From an uncultured Chloroflexota bacterium (lineage in GTDB: Bacteria > Chloroflexota > UBA11872 > VXNJ01), in assembly GCA_913043205.1 (NCBI GenBank), contig CAJWLF010000001.1, forward strand, positions 124,001 to 188,000: DNA of 64,000 bases. Reading direction: 5' to 3'. The translations under genes were made by a program, and so were the position numbers. This document shows, piece after piece, positions 51,604 through 60,449 of this stretch (positions are counted from its first letter, which is position 1; every line of letters starts with the position of its first letter). The notes beneath the pieces are model-generated. The model searched no databases, was not told the DNA's origin, and was given only the letters and a program-made list of their open reading frames with translations.

Positions 51604-52734
51604 TTGAAACTTCATGAGCATCAAGCTCGCAAGCTGTTGTCTGAATTCTCCATACCGGTGCCTCGTGGGATAGTGGCTTCCTCAGTAGATGAGGCGATTT
51701 CGGCTTTTCACGAACTAGGAGGCCCGGTAGTGGTGAAGGCACAAGTCTTGTCTGGTGGGAGGGGAAAGGCTGGAGGGGTGGTATTAGCCAATAACGAGGC
51801 TGCCGTAGAATCCGCTGCAAAAAACATACTGCGTCTTGAGATAGGTGGATATTCTGTGAAGCGTCTTTTAATCACTGATGCTTGCGAAATTTCAAAGGAA
51901 ATATATTTATCCGCTTTGATCGACAGAAACGCAGGGGCGATTGCTGTGATGGCTAGCTCCAAAGGCGGTATGGATATTGAAGAAGTGGCTCTGCAGTCGC
52001 CCGAATTGATAATGCGTAGACATGTTGATTATGCCACGGGTCTCCCTCAATTTATGGCTCGAGAGTTGGGCTTTGAACTCGGTTTGGATTGGGATCAAGT
52101 GAAAGAGTTTCAGAGCATAGCGTCTAACCTAGTAGAGCTGCTGAAACAAGTCGATGCTTCACTTGTTGAGATTAACCCTTTGATTGTAGATGGTGAGGGC
52201 CATTGTCGGGCGATAGATGCAAAGATTGATTTAGATGACAATGCCATGGGCCGTCATCCTGAGCTGGAAAATCTTCGTAACCCGGAGGAGTATACCCGCG
52301 AGGAGATTGAGGCGCGAAACGCCGGCATTAGCTATATAAAATTGGATGGGAACATAGGGTGTATGGTCAATGGAGCAGGTTTGGCTATGGCTCTTCTTGA
52401 TGTAATCAAAGGTGAGGGCGGAGAGCCAGCCAATTTTCTCGATGTCGGGGGTGGTGCTGATTCTGTACAGGTCCGAACAGCCATGAACATAATCCTGTCT
52501 GATCCAACTGTACGGGTTATCTTGATCAATATTTTTGGAGGTATCACTAGATGTGACGAGGTTGCGAACGGTGTAATTGAAGCACTTGGGTCGATTTCCA
52601 AAGATGTTGATCTCGTAGTTCGCTTGGTTGGTACTAATGAGGATGAAGGGTTGTCGCTTTTGAAAACCGCTGGCATTTCAGCTCATTCGTCCATGGTTGA
52701 GGCGGTCAAACAGGCTGTTGAGCTGGCGTCATGA
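51604..52734 (+). CDS. sucC: Succinyl-CoA ligase (ADP/GDP-forming) beta subunit
   Basis: A 376-residue protein with an ATP-grasp N-terminal domain (KLHEHQARKLLSEFSIPVPRG; VVVKAQVLSGGRGKAGGV; LVEINPLIVDGEG) and a C-terminal CoA-ligase domain (CMVNGAGLAMALLDVI; ANFLDVGGGAD; INIFGGITRCDEVANGV). With SucD it couples succinyl-CoA to succinate with NTP formation. Start is TTG at 51604, with GGAGG (51592-51596) 7 nt upstream. It is the first gene of the five-gene sucCD-sdhAB-like-mdh run. Confidence 0.95.
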   Translation: MKLHEHQARKLLSEFSIPVPRGIVASSVDEAISAFHELGGPVVVKAQVLSGGRGKAGGVVLANNEAAVESAAKNILRLEIGGYSVKRLLITDACEISKEIYLSALIDRNAGAIAVMASSKGGMDIEEVALQSPELIMRRHVDYATGLPQFMARELGFELGLDWDQVKEFQSIASNLVELLKQVDASLVEINPLIVDGEGHCRAIDAKIDLDDNAMGRHPELENLRNPEEYTREEIEARNAGISYIKLDGNIGCMVNGAGLAMALLDVIKGEGGEPANFLDVGGGADSVQVRTAMNIILSDPTVRVILINIFGGITRCDEVANGVIEALGSISKDVDLVVRLVGTNEDEGLSLLKTAGISAHSSMVEAVKQAVELAS

Positions 52735-53597
52735 GCATTCTGATCAATGAAAACACTAAAGTTATGGTTCAGGGAATTACCGGTAATCAAGGTTCATTTC
52801 ACACCAACCTAATGCAGCAATATGGCACGAACGTCATCAGTGGTGTCGTGCCCGGGAAAGGTGGCGAATCAGTCTTCGGCGTACCAGTTTTTGACACCGT
52901 CATTCAGGCTGTTGAGTTCGATAGACCAGATTGTGCAGTGGTATTTGTTCCGGCCGCTGTTGCGGCTGATGCAATACTTGAGGAGGTGGCTTGCGGCATT
53001 CCATTAATTATTTGCATTACTGAGGGTATTCCGGTGCTTGATGTAACAAGAGTTATGCAGGCAGTAAATGCTTCCGGTGTCCGGCTGATTGGACCCAATT
53101 GCCCCGGTCTTATAAGCCCTGGTCGAAGCAAGGTTGGGATTATGCCGAGTCATATTCATATGCCGGGACCTGTAGGCGTCGTCAGCCGTAGTGGAACTCT
53201 CACTTATGAAGTCGTACAGGCTTTAACTGATGCCGGCATCGGTCAAACTACATGTGTTGGGATTGGTGGGGACCCCATAATTGGCACATCTTTTGTTGAG
53301 GCCGTAAAAATGTTTCAAGAAGACGATGAAACACGAGGTATTGTGGTCATAGGGGAGATTGGAGGGGAGGGTGAAGAACAATGTGCAGAGTATATAGGCA
53401 AATACGTAGACAAGCCGGTCGTAGGATTCATTTCCGGTAGGTCAGCGCCCGCTGAAAAACGTATGGGGCACGCCGGTGCGATTGTCTCAGGTAGTACAGG
53501 GTCAGCTGATGCAAAAATTTCGGCCTTCGAAGAAGTCGGTGTTTCAGTCGCAAGGATTCCAACTGACATTGCCGCGTTAATTTCTGATTTATTGTGA
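52731..53597 (+). CDS. sucD: Succinyl-CoA ligase alpha subunit
   Basis: A 288-residue protein. The CoA-binding Rossmann domain carries VMVQGITGNQGSFHTNLMQQYG and VSGVVPGKGG-like residues; the phosphohistidine site is GHAGAIVSG (His in the MGHAGAIV loop). GPNCPGLISPG and GIGGDPIIGTSFVEAV complete the family pattern. ATG overlaps the sucC stop by 4 nt. The next gene starts about 120 nt further on. Confidence 0.95.
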   Translation: MSILINENTKVMVQGITGNQGSFHTNLMQQYGTNVISGVVPGKGGESVFGVPVFDTVIQAVEFDRPDCAVVFVPAAVAADAILEEVACGIPLIICITEGIPVLDVTRVMQAVNASGVRLIGPNCPGLISPGRSKVGIMPSHIHMPGPVGVVSRSGTLTYEVVQALTDAGIGQTTCVGIGGDPIIGTSFVEAVKMFQEDDETRGIVVIGEIGGEGEEQCAEYIGKYVDKPVVGFISGRSAPAEKRMGHAGAIVSGSTGSADAKISAFEEVGVSVARIPTDIAALISDLL

Positions 53598-53720
53598 TGT
53601 TTTGTTATGCATGATCGTGTGCGCAGACGGATAACTGTGTAGGATATACGTTCAGGTGTTAATTAGAGTTATTACTTTGACGGGTTGTACAAGCAATCTG
53701 GGAAAGGCAAAAGCATAACT

Positions 53721-55364
53721 GTGATCCAGCACGATGTAATCGTGGTTGGTGGTGGTGTTGCAGGCCTTAGTGCGGCTATAGCTGCAGCTGACAGAGGGTC
53801 TGTGGCTCTTATTTCAAAGAGCCACCCGCTGCGCTCAATGTCGGCAAGTATTCGTGAAGGTATTAATTGTTGTGATGATGATTTGTTCCCTTCATTGGTG
53901 GCGGATACGATCCACGCCGGCGAATATCTTAATGATGTTAATGCTACAGAGGCATTGATCAAAAATTCCTCACAAATGGTCTCAAAGTTGGAGGAGTATG
54001 GGGTTGCCTTTACCCGAGATTCTGCAGGGTTGGCTGCAACGGCTAAATTACAAGGGGCTTCTCGTTCATATACTCGGTACTGTTCCGACCATACAGGAAG
54101 GGCGGTAGTTAATGCTTTGTGGAGCCAAGTGGTTAAGGCTGGCGTATCTGTATACGACGAATGGATGGCTACTAAATTACTTGTAGACGAGTCGACAGTG
54201 TGCGGTGTTGTTGCACTGGATATACGGTCTGGTCGTGTACATTCTTTTTCTGGTCGCTCTGTAGTCATTTGCTCGGGGGGGTATGGGGGTATATTTGCTG
54301 ATAGTGCTGCGGGGTCCTATGTTTGCGGTGATGGATTGGCGATGGCCTATCGAATTGGCGCCACCCTTAAGAATATGGAATTTGTGGATTTTCACCCTGC
54401 TGGACTTAGAACGGTTGATGGGATGCCATCAGATGGGGCAGCTATCGGTGATATGGCCATAGCCCTAGGGGCGCGATTCGTGAATTCTGATGGAGATGAG
54501 ATAGACGTTGGGTTGAATAATGGGGTGCTTCCACCGGACCACATAATGTCAAACGCTCTCAGTAATGTGGCTGGTGATGTGGCATTAGATTTCACCACAA
54601 TCGATAATGAGTTGATGGCTGAGATTATTCCTTCTTGTTTACCTCTTTTGCGTTCTATCACCACTACTTCATCTGATGGTATTAGAGTTTCAGTTAAGCC
54701 GGTTGTTAGGCGGGTAATCGGCGGTATAAACATAAATAGTGTCGGTGCGACTAATGTGTCAGGGCTATACGCTGCTGGTGAGGCTGCCTGCTCAGGGGTT
54801 CATGGAGCGGGGTTGCTAGCAGGGAATTCAATGCTCGATGATTTTGTATCCGGATGGAATGCTGGCGTGGAAGGCAGTCGGGTTGAAGGTGGCTTTAGGA
54901 CCATCAATGAAGGTGACGCGCATGATGAGCAGAATCGAATAGAGAGCATATTACGTAGAGATGAGGGGAACTCGGCGGCGGCAATTTCAAGTTCTCTAAG
55001 GCGCGCTATGTCCGATGGTTTTGGAGTCCTTAGATCACCGGATGGTATGGAAATTGCTTCTCAAGTGCTATTTGATTGTCGCGAATCCCTCAATGGTGTC
55101 GCCATTTACGATGGGCGAAGCCGCTATAATCAAGAATTAGTTAAAGTGCTTGAATTGCAGAATATGATAGAGGTTGCAGGTGCGCTGGTTACGTCTGCAA
55201 TGGCACGAAAGGAATCACGGGGTAGTCATAAACGTACTGATTTTATTGAGGTTGATGACGAGAGATATCAAAAACATTCTGAAATCACATTTCACCCCAA
55301 TGGTTCTGAAGTATCTTTTGTGTCTTTTCCGGCAATTCGCTCCTCCCGACAGGAGGCTCAGTGA
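53721..55364 (+). CDS. SdhA/FrdA-like flavoprotein with lost dicarboxylate-site residues
   Basis: A 547-residue paralogue of succinate dehydrogenase/fumarate reductase flavoprotein. FAD binding is intact (DVIVVGGGVAGLSAA; GLYAAGEAA). Aligned by eye to the in-window FrdA at 58689-60449, Met40 replaces the covalent-FAD His, Asp273 the proton-shuttle Arg of GPRD, Arg330 the His of VVHYMMGG, and Leu365 the Arg of GANRLG; only His225 (FHPAG) remains. A C-terminal [14 protein letters not shown] motif is kept. So FAD should be non-covalent and succinate chemistry unlikely. It overlaps the FeS partner as TGATG. GTG 53721 is preferred; the frame reaches TTG 53685. Confidence 0.75.
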   Translation: MIQHDVIVVGGGVAGLSAAIAAADRGSVALISKSHPLRSMSASIREGINCCDDDLFPSLVADTIHAGEYLNDVNATEALIKNSSQMVSKLEEYGVAFTRDSAGLAATAKLQGASRSYTRYCSDHTGRAVVNALWSQVVKAGVSVYDEWMATKLLVDESTVCGVVALDIRSGRVHSFSGRSVVICSGGYGGIFADSAAGSYVCGDGLAMAYRIGATLKNMEFVDFHPAGLRTVDGMPSDGAAIGDMAIALGARFVNSDGDEIDVGLNNGVLPPDHIMSNALSNVAGDVALDFTTIDNELMAEIIPSCLPLLRSITTTSSDGIRVSVKPVVRRVIGGININSVGATNVSGLYAAGEAACSGVHGAGLLAGNSMLDDFVSGWNAGVEGSRVEGGFRTINEGDAHDEQNRIESILRRDEGNSAAAISSSLRRAMSDGFGVLRSPDGMEIASQVLFDCRESLNGVAIYDGRSRYNQELVKVLELQNMIEVAGALVTSAMARKESRGSHKRTDFIEVDDERYQKHSEITFHPNGSEVSFVSFPAIRSSRQEAQ

Positions 55365-56074
55365 TGGATAATGTTGAATTAGTTGTAACTAGATACGATC
55401 CAGAAATAGACGATTTTCATCGAAGTCAAACATTCTCTGTTAGGGCGGTGCCAGGCATGACTGTTCTTGATGCACTAGTTCAGGTCCGTGACGAACAGGA
55501 TGGATCACTTCGTTTCAGAGAGTCGGAACCTGGTGGTTGGAGCGGTTCATGCGCGGTCACGGTTAATGACGTGCCGTGTCTGGCTTCCCGGACGCTTCTG
55601 GCTAGAGTTATATTAAATAATTCAGCTGTGATAGGTCCTTTGAAGAATTTTCCGGTAATATGTGATCTGGTTGTTGACAACCCCATATATCTGGCAAAAA
55701 TTGAAGCTTTGGAGCCTTGGGTAGATAACGCAAAAGAGCAACCTGCATCAATGACCCGTGAAGAGTATTTTAGATTGCGACGAACTGATGGGTGTGCCCT
55801 TTGTGGTATTTGTGATGCTAATTCGGATGAGTACCTGACTGATCCAATGTTTATTGGAGCAGCGTCATTACTGTGGACCTATCGTTTGACATCCGATTCG
55901 CGTGACTCGTTTGACCGAGAGCGCATGGAGGCTGTGCTTGGTAGCGGAGGGTTATGGGCCTTTTCTGGTGATACTTCCAGTGAGGATTTATGTCCTTATG
56001 CTATCGACCCAGTAAATCAAATTATGAGATTACGAAATGCAGCCTCACAGAATGGATATGTTCCTACTGAATAG
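55364..56074 (+). CDS. SdhB/FrdB-like protein keeping only the [4Fe-4S] ligands
   Basis: A 236-residue paralogue of the iron-sulfur subunit. Aligned by eye to FrdB at 57943-58692, three of four [2Fe-2S] cysteines are gone (only Cys63 remains) and all three [3Fe-4S] cysteines are replaced (Ser154, Phe200, Ser206 region). Cys144, Cys147, Cys150 (CALCGIC) and Cys210 (LCP), which bind [4Fe-4S] in complex II, are all kept. The rest of the fold still aligns (VLDAL, DGSL, PLKNFPVICDLVVD, SRDS). ATG 55364 has GGAGG 7 nt upstream. It presumably pairs with the flavoprotein encoded just before it. Confidence 0.75.
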   Translation: MDNVELVVTRYDPEIDDFHRSQTFSVRAVPGMTVLDALVQVRDEQDGSLRFRESEPGGWSGSCAVTVNDVPCLASRTLLARVILNNSAVIGPLKNFPVICDLVVDNPIYLAKIEALEPWVDNAKEQPASMTREEYFRLRRTDGCALCGICDANSDEYLTDPMFIGAASLLWTYRLTSDSRDSFDRERMEAVLGSGGLWAFSGDTSSEDLCPYAIDPVNQIMRLRNAASQNGYVPTE

Positions 56075-56122: not shown

Positions 56123-57049
56123 ATGCGGCCTAAAGTGACTGTTGTCGGAGCTGGTGCGACAGGCGGATCTACCGCGAGAAGGGTAGCCGCTCGCGGATAT
56201 GCTGACGTGGTGCTACTGGACATAATGGCAGACTTTGCTGCCGGCAAAGCCCTGGATTTAAATCAGGCAGGCTCTTTGGTCGGGTATCCGCCGAATATAG
56301 TTGGAACCGGGTCTTATGAAGATACTCGCGGATCTTCTGTTTGCGTAATAACCTCTGGGTTTCCTCGGAAGCCTGGAATGTCTCGAGATGATCTATTGCT
56401 TGGCAACAAGGAAATTATTGAAATCGTTGTCGAAAAGCTTTTAGACGAGTCTCCTGACACCATTTTGGTAATCCTAACGAATCCTATGGACGCGATGGCT
56501 CAATTAGCTCTCCACGTGTCTGGATTACCACGCCAAAAAGTTATAGGACAAGGTGGGATACTTGATACTGCTAGATATCGGACATTCATTGCATGGGAGC
56601 TCGGTGTAGCGGCTGATGATGTATCTGGTTTCGTTCTTGGTGGTCATGGAGATACGATGGTACCAGTACCCAGTTATACATCGGTAGCAGGCATTCCTGT
56701 AACGGAACTTATTGATGCTGATCGATTGGAAGAAATTGTTCAGCGTGCACGTGATGGTGGGGCCGAAGTTGGAGGTCTGATGAAAGTCGCTAGTGCATTT
56801 GAGGCGCCTGGAGAGGCCTGTGCAATGATGGTTGATTCCATAATGCTTGATCAGAAACGAATATTTCCCTGCGCTGTACAGCTGGAAGGTGAGTTTGATA
56901 TTGATGGGACCTTCGTCGGTGTTCCAGTTAAGTTGGGTAGCGGTGGAGTGGAACAGATAATGCCGCTGAAATTGTCGTCTACTGAAATATCAGATCTAAA
57001 AAAGTCAGCTGATGCAGTAGTTGAACTGGTTAAAATTATGGGTATCTAG
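56123..57049 (+). CDS. mdh: Malate dehydrogenase (LDH-like type)
   Basis: A 308-residue NAD-dependent enzyme of the LDH-like MDH group. The Rossmann loop is VVGAGATGGSTA, with an acidic residue after strand 2 (LLDIM) pointing to NAD. GKALDLNQA, substrate loop GFPRKPGMSRDDLL (Arg pair suits malate), LTNPMDAM, GGILDTARYRTF and the catalytic His in GGHGDTMVP are visible. It oxidises malate to oxaloacetate. AAGGAGG lies 10 nt before ATG. It ends the sucCD operon and converges with frdD. Confidence 0.94.
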   Translation: MRPKVTVVGAGATGGSTARRVAARGYADVVLLDIMADFAAGKALDLNQAGSLVGYPPNIVGTGSYEDTRGSSVCVITSGFPRKPGMSRDDLLLGNKEIIEIVVEKLLDESPDTILVILTNPMDAMAQLALHVSGLPRQKVIGQGGILDTARYRTFIAWELGVAADDVSGFVLGGHGDTMVPVPSYTSVAGIPVTELIDADRLEEIVQRARDGGAEVGGLMKVASAFEAPGEACAMMVDSIMLDQKRIFPCAVQLEGEFDIDGTFVGVPVKLGSGGVEQIMPLKLSSTEISDLKKSADAVVELVKIMGI

Positions 57050-57131: not shown

Positions 57132-57488
57132 TTAGAGCCCTGCAAGTAATAATGCAGCTAGCCCGGAAGCCCCAAGGGCGCTTAGATAACATAGTGTTGC
57201 CGCTATTGGATCTGGTATTGGAATACGAGTGTCATGTATCGTATGGCGTATCCGATGAGCGGCGTGCATTAACGATGCTCCTATAACGGCTAATACGACG
57301 ATGCGTACGATCCAGTTGCTAAGCAGTGAGTATATTCGATCATACGAAAAGGCCACTTGGGCCTCTTCTATTCCAAATCCACCTAAAATAGTAGATGCAA
57401 TTAATGAAGGTATTAGCATTGCTGACACGACTCCACCACCACTAAATATTAGCCAGAACAATGCTTCGTTCGATCCACGAGGCTTCAT
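57132..57488 (-). CDS. frdD: Complex II membrane anchor, FrdD-like
   Basis: A 118-residue protein with three membrane segments, the same length as E. coli FrdD (119). The N-terminal RGSNEALFWLIFSGGGVVSAMLIP matches the FrdD start (SNEPVFW-type). Later come LSNWIVRIVVLAVIGASLMHAAHRIRH and two more segments. With FrdC it anchors the catalytic subunits and holds quinone. ATG 57488 overlaps the frdC stop as ATGA, so the longer upstream frame (to 57530) is rejected. It converges with mdh. Confidence 0.82.
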   Translation of the reverse strand: MKPRGSNEALFWLIFSGGGVVSAMLIPSLIASTILGGFGIEEAQVAFSYDRIYSLLSNWIVRIVVLAVIGASLMHAAHRIRHTIHDTRIPIPDPIAATLCYLSALGASGLAALLLAGL

Positions 57489-57946
57489 GAAAATATCATC
57501 CATAGAACAATAGAGCTTACTCCCAACCACACTATGTAAAGGGGAGTGATTAAAAATAGTGGCGATATCGGAGATTCTCCTTTAAGTATCCGTACCGCTT
57601 TCGGCGTCAGATTAAACCAAGTTACCGTATGAAATAACGCAAAGAGCAAGGTAAATACTTGAATTACCGTTAATGGTGGCGACCATAGCAACTCCATATA
57701 GTCGTTGTATGCTTCTGCTCCGATATACAAAGCCGCTATCAACCCTATAAACAGTATGAGGTATAAAGCGATAAAGACTGAGGTTAGCTCTCTAATAAAT
57801 ACGAAGAAATAAGACGATCCCCGTAGCCACCACGTTGCCCCTAAATCTGGACGTGGGCGAGTATCACGCTGTCTGTATCTCGTGTGATTAAGCCACCAAT
57901 TTGAGTGCAAGTTATGGGAAGGACGGCGTTTTTCGGGGTCAGTCAT
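57485..57946 (-). CDS. frdC: Complex II membrane anchor, FrdC-like
   Basis: A 153-residue anchor with three membrane segments in about the last 100 residues. FFVFIRELTSVFIALYLILF aligns with the first FrdC helix, and VIQVFTLLFALFHTVTWFNLTPKA with the conserved HTxTWFxLAPKA segment. The ~45-residue N terminus is polar and basic. ATG 57946 overlaps the frdB stop as ATGA; the frame extends up to 58081 inside frdB but that is not used. The frdABCD order matches the enterobacterial fumarate reductase operon, though direction of the reaction cannot be read from sequence. Confidence 0.83.
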   Translation of the reverse strand: MTDPEKRRPSHNLHSNWWLNHTRYRQRDTRPRPDLGATWWLRGSSYFFVFIRELTSVFIALYLILFIGLIAALYIGAEAYNDYMELLWSPPLTVIQVFTLLFALFHTVTWFNLTPKAVRILKGESPISPLFLITPLYIVWLGVSSIVLWMIFS

Positions 57947-58692
57947 TTGTTCCCTTTTGGCATAATCAATGATTTGGCATAGGCCAGGGCACTTTCGAGC
58001 TTGGCTTGTTGTATCGCGGCTGCCGGATCTACTCCTTTTGGGCATACATTTGAACACTCTCCCACGAAGGTACAGTCCCAAACACCCTCATTGGCCATAA
58101 GAACATCTAGTCTTTGCTCTTTTCCTGAGTCGCGAGAGTCCAAGTTATATCGCTGGGCTAGCGCTATGGCTGCAGGTCCAACGAATTCAGGTTCGTTGCT
58201 GGCCACGGGGCACGCAGAGTAACACAGGGTGCAGTTAATACACATGCTGTATTGCTTGTATTTTGCCAGTTGAGCAGGTGTTTGTTTGTATTCTCGGTTC
58301 GCGGGAGGGACCGAGTCTCCTTCAATTAACCAGGGCTTCACGGAGTCTAGTTTGTGGATAAAGTCATCCATATCCACTATAAGATCTCGTTCAACTCTGA
58401 AATTGGCCAATGGTTCAACAACGATAGGGTCTGGGTAGTATTCTGAGAGAAACGCGGAACATGTGAGCTTGGGTTTGCCGTTAATCATCATCCCGCAACT
58501 GCCGCACACTCCCATTCGGCACGACCATCGATAAGCTAGCGATCCGTCAACGTAATCTTTTATGTAATTAAGCGCATCAAGAACAACCCAATCTTCGTTG
58601 TACGGAACCATGTATTCATCATAGCCGTCCGTGGTCTGCCCTTCGGTGTATCTGGATATTTTTAGGGGTATTCTGTCAGTATCCACGGTCAT
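57943..58692 (-). CDS. frdB: Succinate dehydrogenase/fumarate reductase iron-sulfur subunit
   Basis: A 249-residue complex II iron-sulfur protein with a full set of cluster ligands. [2Fe-2S]: [11 protein letters not shown] then LTC. [4Fe-4S] and [3Fe-4S]: [12 protein letters not shown] and the C-terminal [14 protein letters not shown]. It passes electrons from FAD to quinone. Start overlaps the frdA stop by 4 nt. It is the intact counterpart of the degenerate protein at 55364-56074. Confidence 0.95.
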
Positions 58693-60449
58693 TTTCCTCC
58701 TCCGTATATACGTTTAGCTGGCGGGAGGTTAGTGATGACAACATCCTTGTGCTCGATTCGCGGTGCGTCATCGGTGTTGTACGCAAGAGAATGTTTTAGG
58801 AACTCGTCATCATCTCGCTCTGGGAAATCAGTTCGCTGGTGAGATCCACGAGATTCTTTTCGGCGGAGCGCAGAGAACGTGACTGTCTCTGCAATATCAA
58901 GCATGAAGTCTAGCTCTATTGCAGAAGTTAATTCTGTATTGTAGGACAGGCTAGTGTCATCTAGTTTAAGGTTTTTGGATCGTTTGCGTAGCTCTGTGAT
59001 CGTTGTACAGGCCTTTTGCATTCCTTCCGCATTTCGGTATATTCCTGCTCCTTCTTCAAGCGCGGATGTCATTATATTTCTGAGATCCGCTATTTTTTCA
59101 TCCCCGGCTCGATTTCCGAGCAGCTCCGAAATCCTATTAATCTCGTCTTGAGTCTGGGAGAGCAGGTCGTTTTCCCCAGATATGCCGTGCTGTTGGGCGA
59201 ATATGGCTGCATTTCTGCCGGCTTGCGCCCCAAAAACTAGCAGTTCAGTTAGCGAATTGGAGCCTAGTCTATTTGCACCATTAATGCTTACGCATGCGCA
59301 TTCTCCGGCTGCGTATAGTCCCGGTAGGGTAGTCGCGGCTTCAATATCCGTATCTATGCCGCCCATCATGTAATGCACCACAGGACGCACGGGGATAGGT
59401 TCGTGTACAGGGTCTACCCCACCATAGTTGTTAGACAACTCCCTTACGAAAGGTATCTTTTTCTCAATATATGATTCACCCAAATGTCTTACGTCTAAAT
59501 GAACGTAAGTACCATGAGGGCCTTCAAAGACATTACCTTTGGTTTGTTCGTGTATGAACGCCTGCGACAAACGATCTCGGGGACCTAGTTCCATTGTTCG
59601 GTTTTTCGGATGATCATGATGATCTATAGGGAGAGGCTTGCCTAGATCATAGTCGCTGAGGTAACGATGTCCTTTGTTATTGACAAGGATCCCTCCCTCT
59701 CCTCGGGCTGCTTCGGTAATTAGAATACCGGTTCCTGGTAGTCCTGTTGGGTGGTATTGAACAAATTCCATGTCTTTCAATGCAACCCCTGCCCTGTAGG
59801 CTAGAGCCATTCCATCTCCGGTCTTGATTGCAGCATTCGTAGTAAATGGGAACACTCTTCCGCCTCCGCCTGTGCACATAATTACTGCCTTCGCAAGTAT
59901 CGGTACGATCCGTCCTGTGCGCAACTCCATTGCAGCTACCCCTTGGCACCTACCATCGTGGGTTAACAGCCTAAGCGCCATCCATTCGTCATACCGTTGC
60001 AAGCTCCTATATTTGAGAGTTGTTTGGAACAGTGAGTGAAGTACATGGAACCCAGTTTTGTCCGCTGCAAACCATGTACGTTCAATCTGCATTCCGCCAA
60101 ATGGGCGAACTGCAACGCTGCCGTCTGATTCGCGGCTCCAGGGACACCCCCAGTGTTCGAGTTGAATCAACTCCGACGGTGCTGTTCTCACGAAAAATTC
60201 AACAGCGTCCTGGTCCGCTAGCCAGTCTGATCCGCTCACCGTGTCATAGATGTGATCCTCAAAACTGTCATTGGGCTTGATGACGGCTGCCATGCCACCT
60301 TCTGCAGCCACCGTATGGCTGCGCATTGGGTAGACCTTGGAAACTACAGCCACGTCCAAATCTGGGTTCTCTTGAGACACCGCAATAGCAGCCCTAAGCC
60401 CTGCCCCTCCACCTCCAATAATTAGAATGTCGTGTTTGATAGAGCGCAT
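58689..60449 (-). CDS. frdA: Succinate dehydrogenase/fumarate reductase flavoprotein subunit
   Basis: A 586-residue complex II flavoprotein. FAD binding: [16 protein letters not shown] and the covalent His in [13 protein letters not shown]. Substrate and catalytic residues: [23 protein letters not shown] (proton-shuttle Arg), VVHYMMGGI and [10 protein letters not shown]. The C terminus has [13 protein letters not shown]. Enzyme direction (succinate oxidation or fumarate reduction) is undecided; other TCA genes here favour succinate oxidation. First gene of the frdABCD operon, divergent from the flavin monooxygenase gene. Confidence 0.95.

Follow-up and report, generated by a model that had tools for sequence, protein, structure and literature searches.

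A conserved sdhA'-sdhB' pair in a TCA-cycle operon of Chloroflexota: an SdhB paralogue with a single [4Fe-4S] ligand set

The usual teaching presents complex II as a wire that runs through FAD and three iron-sulfur clusters and works as a whole or not at all. A locus in an uncultured Chloroflexota bacterium raises the question of what its iron-sulfur subunit can become when most of this wire is missing. In the window, the whole stretch of 64,000 nt that was analysed, an SdhB-like protein (SdhB') is encoded together with an SdhA-like flavoprotein (SdhA') inside a TCA-cycle operon. A sequence-only reading had proposed that SdhB' keeps one complete cluster site under selection for a single-cluster partner protein. 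The points at issue are which clusters the protein could still hold, whether it is constrained or decaying, and what role the pair might have.

Gene order and cluster ligands of SdhB'

The genes are arranged in the order sucC-sucD-sdhA'-sdhB'-mdh, and a complete FrdABCD lies past mdh on the opposite strand (Table 1). sdhA' and sdhB' are predicted to be a translationally coupled pair, with their start overlap behind a perfect, strong Shine-Dalgarno sequence. The spacing is only 87 bp between sucD and sdhA' and 48 bp between sdhB' and mdh, so the operon contains no anchor gene. An SdhE/CCG partner displaced from the operon was not found beside it; the sole CCG protein found in the genome is a 438-aa ORF on another contig. 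A true NadB, above the curated cut-off, is encoded in the same genome. Because complete FrdABCD and a real NadB are both present, the sdhA'-sdhB' pair is not needed for the known SdhA-type reactions.

Table 1. Features of the operon and of the neighbouring canonical complex II (positions in the window)
Feature	Position	Strand	Description
sucC	51604..52734	+	Succinyl-CoA synthetase beta; opens the conserved operon; synteny
sucD	52731..53597	+	Succinyl-CoA synthetase alpha; synteny
sdhA'	53685..55364	+	SdhA/FrdA-like flavoprotein, 559 aa; FAD_binding_2 182 bits; Rossmann motif retained; substitutions at the covalent-FAD His and at most substrate/catalytic positions
AGGAGG ribosome-binding site and TGATG overlap	55351..55366	+	sdhA' stop 55362-55364, sdhB' ATG 55364-55366
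sdhB'	55364..56074	+	Intact ORF, 236 aa; SdhB-like, single [4Fe-4S] ligand set C144, C147, C150, C210
Former [2Fe-2S] loop of sdhB'	55514..55591	+	Residues 51-76, FRESEPGGWSGSCAVTVNDVPCLASR; 3/4 ligands gone
C144-x2-C147-x2-C150 of sdhB'	55793..55813	+	First three [4Fe-4S] ligands; Ser154 at the next ligand position, that of [3Fe-4S]
C210 of sdhB'	55991..55993	+	Fourth [4Fe-4S] ligand, LCP motif
mdh	56123..57049	+	Malate dehydrogenase; closes the conserved block; synteny
Two small membrane-protein ORFs	57132..58081 (57485-58081, 57132-57530)	-	FrdC/FrdD anchor by position and synteny with sister genomes
FrdB, canonical complex II	57943..58692	-	11/11 ligands; PRK12385 above cut-off
FrdA, canonical complex II	58689..60449	-	Catalytic residues all present

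SdhB' is a full-length SdhB homologue with 148.7 bits against TIGR00384 (cut-off 88); judged from the sequence, its homology to complex II is certain. In Pfam, Fer2_3 was matched and Fer4 was not, and identity to the window FrdB was 28% in the alignment. Since SdhB' clears the TIGR00384 cut-off, it would be labelled a succinate dehydrogenase subunit in annotation.

The ligand columns were read from an alignment of SdhB' with the window FrdB and 22 further SdhB/FrdB sequences. The ligand table covered the four orthologues described below and 20 relatives, and 58 comparison loci were taken separately. The [4Fe-4S] columns read C-C-C-C (CxxCxxC...C). The [2Fe-2S] columns read E-S-C-S in place of the canonical C-C-C-C (C55, C60, C63 or D, and C75), and the [3Fe-4S] columns, on the quinone-site side, read S-F-S in place of C-C-C. 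This agrees exactly with the sequence-only reading, which had counted 5 of 11 canonical cluster cysteines as kept, had assigned Cys144, Cys147, Cys150 and Cys210 to the [4Fe-4S] centre, and had listed all three [3Fe-4S] and three of the four [2Fe-2S] ligands as replaced. The SdhB/FrdB proteins at the 58 comparison loci, which come from 39 genomes of the class and phylum, carry complete ligand sets, save for a C63 to D change in two. The same change is also present in E. coli SdhB. As alternative ligands for a second cluster, C63, C72 and C100 of SdhB' were considered, and all three are absent from the orthologue in genome G001.

If 5 of 11 ligands survived at random, all four [4Fe-4S] cysteines would be spared in 7 of 462 draws (1.5%); that the ligand set common to all four orthologues is exactly these four has a chance of 1/330. 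Other near-invariant complex-II positions were kept in the window SdhB' at 31 of 41 (76%), a rate at which retention of four cysteines has a probability of about 0.3, so the four kept cysteines alone are unremarkable. What is noteworthy is that the losses track cluster boundaries, with six of the seven other ligands gone.

An AlphaFold2 model of SdhB', built with 34 sequences, displayed a complete SdhB fold at a mean pLDDT of 87.6. Its best match was E. coli FrdB (TM 0.91, 1.9 Å, 234 columns), and each of the four cysteines was paired in the alignment with one [4Fe-4S] ligand of the solved FrdB. The expectation that these cysteines converge is thus borne out at the level of fold and alignment. 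The SdhA' model (AlphaFold2) reached a pLDDT of 87.6 and a TM of about 0.9 to FrdA/SdhA.

Orthologues and the order of cluster loss

Orthologues of sdhA'-sdhB' were identified in three of the four other genomes of the family (G001, G002 and G004, from two other genera), always between sucD and mdh, so that the pair holds the same operon position across three genera. The four orthologues scored 395-436 bits and the next best protein 213 bits in the family, class and phylum search, and no further ones were found among the 5 genomes of the family, 41 of the class and 400 of the phylum. A search of GTDB contigs gave no orthologues besides the records of G002 and G004, which match two public MAGs labelled 'Chloroflexi bacterium' (COS3_bin_10 and COS1_bin_21). 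The sample thus consists of only four metagenome-assembled genomes, one per species, with none other from the genus of the window. A canonical complex II is present in every genome of the family.

The remaining family genome, G003, carries sucC-sucD-mdh-frdA-frdB-frdC/D on one strand (L035:691-7135), where the pair is absent and complex II follows directly downstream. G003 probably lost the pair, because it is sister to G002 and G004 in the tree (support 87/96) yet lacks it. The pair is therefore dispensable there.

In G001, a different complex II (SdhA2/SdhB2, L031:981-3770) adjoins mdh; it is 35% identical to FrdA and carries all ligands and catalytic residues. Relatives of G001 carry an E. 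coli-type FrdABCD at this place.

The four SdhB' proteins formed one clade (98/96). G002 and G004 kept 4/4 [2Fe-2S], 4/4 [4Fe-4S] and 1/3 [3Fe-4S] ligands. The G001 protein kept exactly the four [4Fe-4S] ligands, and its [2Fe-2S] columns read E-S-G-V. At most one of the three [3Fe-4S] ligands was kept in any orthologue. This pattern points to loss of [3Fe-4S] first, common to all four, and of [2Fe-2S] next, in the window and G001. The changes C55 to E and C60 to S are common to the window and G001, and these two grouped at 95/95 with the loop and cysteine columns left out; the [2Fe-2S] loss therefore appears to predate their split. In the operon-gene tree, support was weak (64/64) for how the window and G001 branch relative to the other genomes. 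If the window and G001 were not sisters, [2Fe-2S] would have been lost twice and the [4Fe-4S] set spared twice. Scattered cysteine loss among sister genomes would have spoken against the sequence-only reading; instead, every orthologue had all four [4Fe-4S] cysteines, and the losses at the other ligands were nested.

The class outgroups G034 and G029 contain SdhABE operons of type E, in which a CCG-type SdhE gene lies downstream. The sdhA'-sdhB' pair may descend from a non-classical, type E-like complex, but the deep branches of the tree are weak. These outgroups show the Cys pattern and the SdhE-like CCG gene of the type E succinate:quinone oxidoreductase, or methylmenaquinol:fumarate reductase, which has a non-classical anchor (PMC2680327). 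In contrast to the pair, where one or two ligand sets remain and no SdhE adjoins, SdhABE holds three complete clusters, a second [4Fe-4S] replacing [3Fe-4S], together with SdhE (PMC2680327). The C-terminal motif of SdhB' contains no extra Cys of the type E kind.

State of SdhA' and constraint on the pair

The GxGxxG nucleotide motif is intact in SdhA', and the window copy also retains most of the FAD-contact glycines; non-covalent FAD is therefore plausible in the window SdhA'. The substrate Asn-Arg (R390 in E. coli FrdA numbering) was replaced by Gly-Leu/Pro in all four orthologues, with HGAGxLxGN in place of HGANRLGSN. The window SdhA' shows M at H44, D at R287, R at H355 and L at R390; of the covalent-FAD His and the catalytic H232, R287, H355 and R390 that define a functional complex II, it retains H232, and it is the only one of the four orthologues to do so. 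T244, E245, R248 and R287 are present in G002 and G004 and absent from the window and G001, and H355 is kept in G002 and G004 and lost in the window. The window, G002 and G004 carry another residue instead of the covalent-FAD His; at the G001 position, His appeared in one alignment and not in another.

SdhA' of G001 (L031:5493-7130) lies on a branch of 3.9 changes per column. Its GDG and TGG motifs near FAD are gone, and it scored only 103 bits with FAD_binding_2. Because it is so diverged and scores so low, it may no longer bind FAD.

SdhA' was also considered as the NadB of the cell and rejected: it scored 268.7 bits with TIGR00551, below the cut-off of 452.75 bits, position R390 is L, and the true NadB is elsewhere in the genome. 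NadB resembles SdhA' as a soluble SdhA homologue that acts without an iron-sulfur subunit or anchor; unlike SdhA', it keeps the substrate arginine.

Between the window and G001, SdhA' was less conserved (33-35% identity) than SdhB' (49%). The canonical subunits of the window and its sisters showed the opposite order, with FrdA at 71-73% and FrdB at 54-64%, and the normal order was also found between G002 and G004, which keep [2Fe-2S] (SdhA' 93%, SdhB' 88%). SdhA' branches were very long in the window and G001. Constraint on the flavoprotein may thus have fallen where the flavin-cluster wire was cut, a correlation from few lineages.

For SdhB', ω = 1 was rejected between the window and G001 with a likelihood ratio of 112, at 49% identity and with synonymous sites saturated. 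With no close relative and saturated dS, only an argument from constraint since the split is possible for the window lineage; the figure spans this whole time and would not reveal a relaxation that set in very recently in the window species. Between G002 and G004, ω was 0.22 for SdhB', 0.14 for SdhA' and 0.05-0.13 for Mdh, SucC and SucD. The former [2Fe-2S] loop (residues 50-76) was 63% identical between the window and G001 and was the best-conserved stretch, compared with 44% for the C-terminal domain; both share the loop motif FRExEPGG[WF]SG. A loop merely drifting after cluster loss would be the least conserved stretch. The identity at saturated dS and the conservation of the emptied loop support constraint, rather than decay, on SdhB' after the [2Fe-2S] loss.

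The claim of selection for a single-cluster partner therefore stands for selection and is narrowed for the single cluster, which applies to the window and G001; G002 and G004 keep the [2Fe-2S] motif. The word partner also needs qualification: the flavoprotein that SdhB' would join is itself disabled for catalysis and is the less conserved of the two proteins.

Candidate role of the pair and rival explanations

The pair shares with SdhB/FrdB (TIGR00384; E. coli FrdB, PDB 1KF6/6AWF) the two-domain full-length fold, the [4Fe-4S] set and the sdhA-sdhB order. It departs from a working complex II in four features, namely the [2Fe-2S] cluster, the [3Fe-4S] cluster, the active site with its succinate-site residues, and the anchor gene. 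We favour, with a probability of about 0.5, the reading that it is an anchor-less complex-II paralogue taken out of respiration, whose one-cluster heterodimer serves as a non-catalytic scaffold or regulator. The pair of the family ancestor would already have lost the quinone-side [3Fe-4S] cluster and the succinate site, and the lineage of the window and G001 would then have lost the flavin-side [2Fe-2S] cluster too. The product would be a soluble SdhA'-SdhB' heterodimer in which the SdhB' fold holds one [4Fe-4S] cluster.

Electrons in complex II are relayed from FAD through [2Fe-2S] and [4Fe-4S] to [3Fe-4S] (PMC3290573). Without its neighbours, the middle [4Fe-4S] of this relay would be too far from FAD for electron transfer and could not reach the quinone. 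The distance between FAD and [4Fe-4S] in complex II structures, when [2Fe-2S] is skipped, is more than 20 Å. Electron transfer past 14 Å is not physiological (PMC7447783). With [2Fe-2S] gone, FAD would have no route to the remaining cluster, and we therefore prefer a heterodimer with a structural or regulatory task to a redox enzyme. The cluster could act as a structural clamp, or as an oxygen- or iron-sensitive switch, that keeps SdhB' folded and bound. In glutamate synthase (GltS), a [4Fe-4S] cluster is required for subunit association (PMC8097209); this serves by working analogy only, as GltS is an unrelated protein whose clusters also carry electrons. The pair might be a non-catalytic scaffold or regulator of the SucCD and Mdh encoded alongside. 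Its position between sucD and mdh makes these neighbouring TCA enzymes the first candidate partners, by context only. More specifically, and at slightly under even odds, the selection-kept dead heterodimer would be a TCA-cycle pseudoenzyme in which the isolated [4Fe-4S] is structural or sensing and the emptied loop is now a conserved surface.

Several features could instead be read as a complex II relic, redundant to FrdABCD and slowly dying midway to loss. The canonical enzyme in every family genome, the loss of the pair in G003, the stepwise disappearance of clusters and catalytic residues among the family members, and the very long SdhA' branches in the window and G001 would all fit this explanation. 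We consider it unlikely, though a serious rival, given that the frames are open in all four orthologues, that ω is 0.22 between G002 and G004, that SdhB' retains its 49% identity at saturated dS since a shared cluster loss, that the best-conserved stretch is the emptied loop, and that the losses track cluster boundaries.

A neofunctionalised redox enzyme, with non-covalent FAD and a new substrate in SdhA' and the SdhB' cluster or clusters feeding a soluble acceptor, is improbable. G002 and G004 keep [2Fe-2S], [4Fe-4S] and SdhA residues T244, E245, R248, R287 and H355 without the quinone-side cluster, and a chain from FAD through both clusters to a soluble partner is therefore plausible there. 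The new conserved HGAGxLxGN motif of all four and the existence of soluble relatives such as TfrAB agree with it. However, the window and G001 have lost the cluster nearest the flavin, and their SdhA' proteins lack most catalytic residues and evolve fastest. It would also be conceivable that SdhB' joins another flavoprotein, such as canonical FrdA or the L-aspartate oxidase NadB. Both are present, and conservation is higher in SdhB' than in the SdhA' encoded beside it; this is nevertheless very improbable, as the two genes stand side by side wherever they occur and are missing together in G003. In addition, no NadB is known to use an SdhB.

The orthologues form a natural series of single cluster removals, which began on the quinone side and went on to the flavin side while selection continued to act on the protein. 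Such a series lets one test the structural role of the central [4Fe-4S] apart from electron transfer, and it also bears on non-respiratory roles of complex-II subunits in bacteria. No published description of an SdhB with only the [4Fe-4S] set, or of such a pair, was found in the open-access literature, which is weak evidence for novelty.

An unusual SdhAB pair was also observed in Dehalococcoidia MAGs (L049:5359-7954, L059:4018-6754 and L063:5329-7963). Its SdhB lacks the C212 ligand and shows CxHCxEA[ST]EHCP. The SdhA substrate site is altered at the same loci, with G-R-L-G-N and H232 to A in L059 and L063, and loss of R248, R287 and R390 in L049. This pair may be another case, independent of the first, in which the classical complex II design was left.
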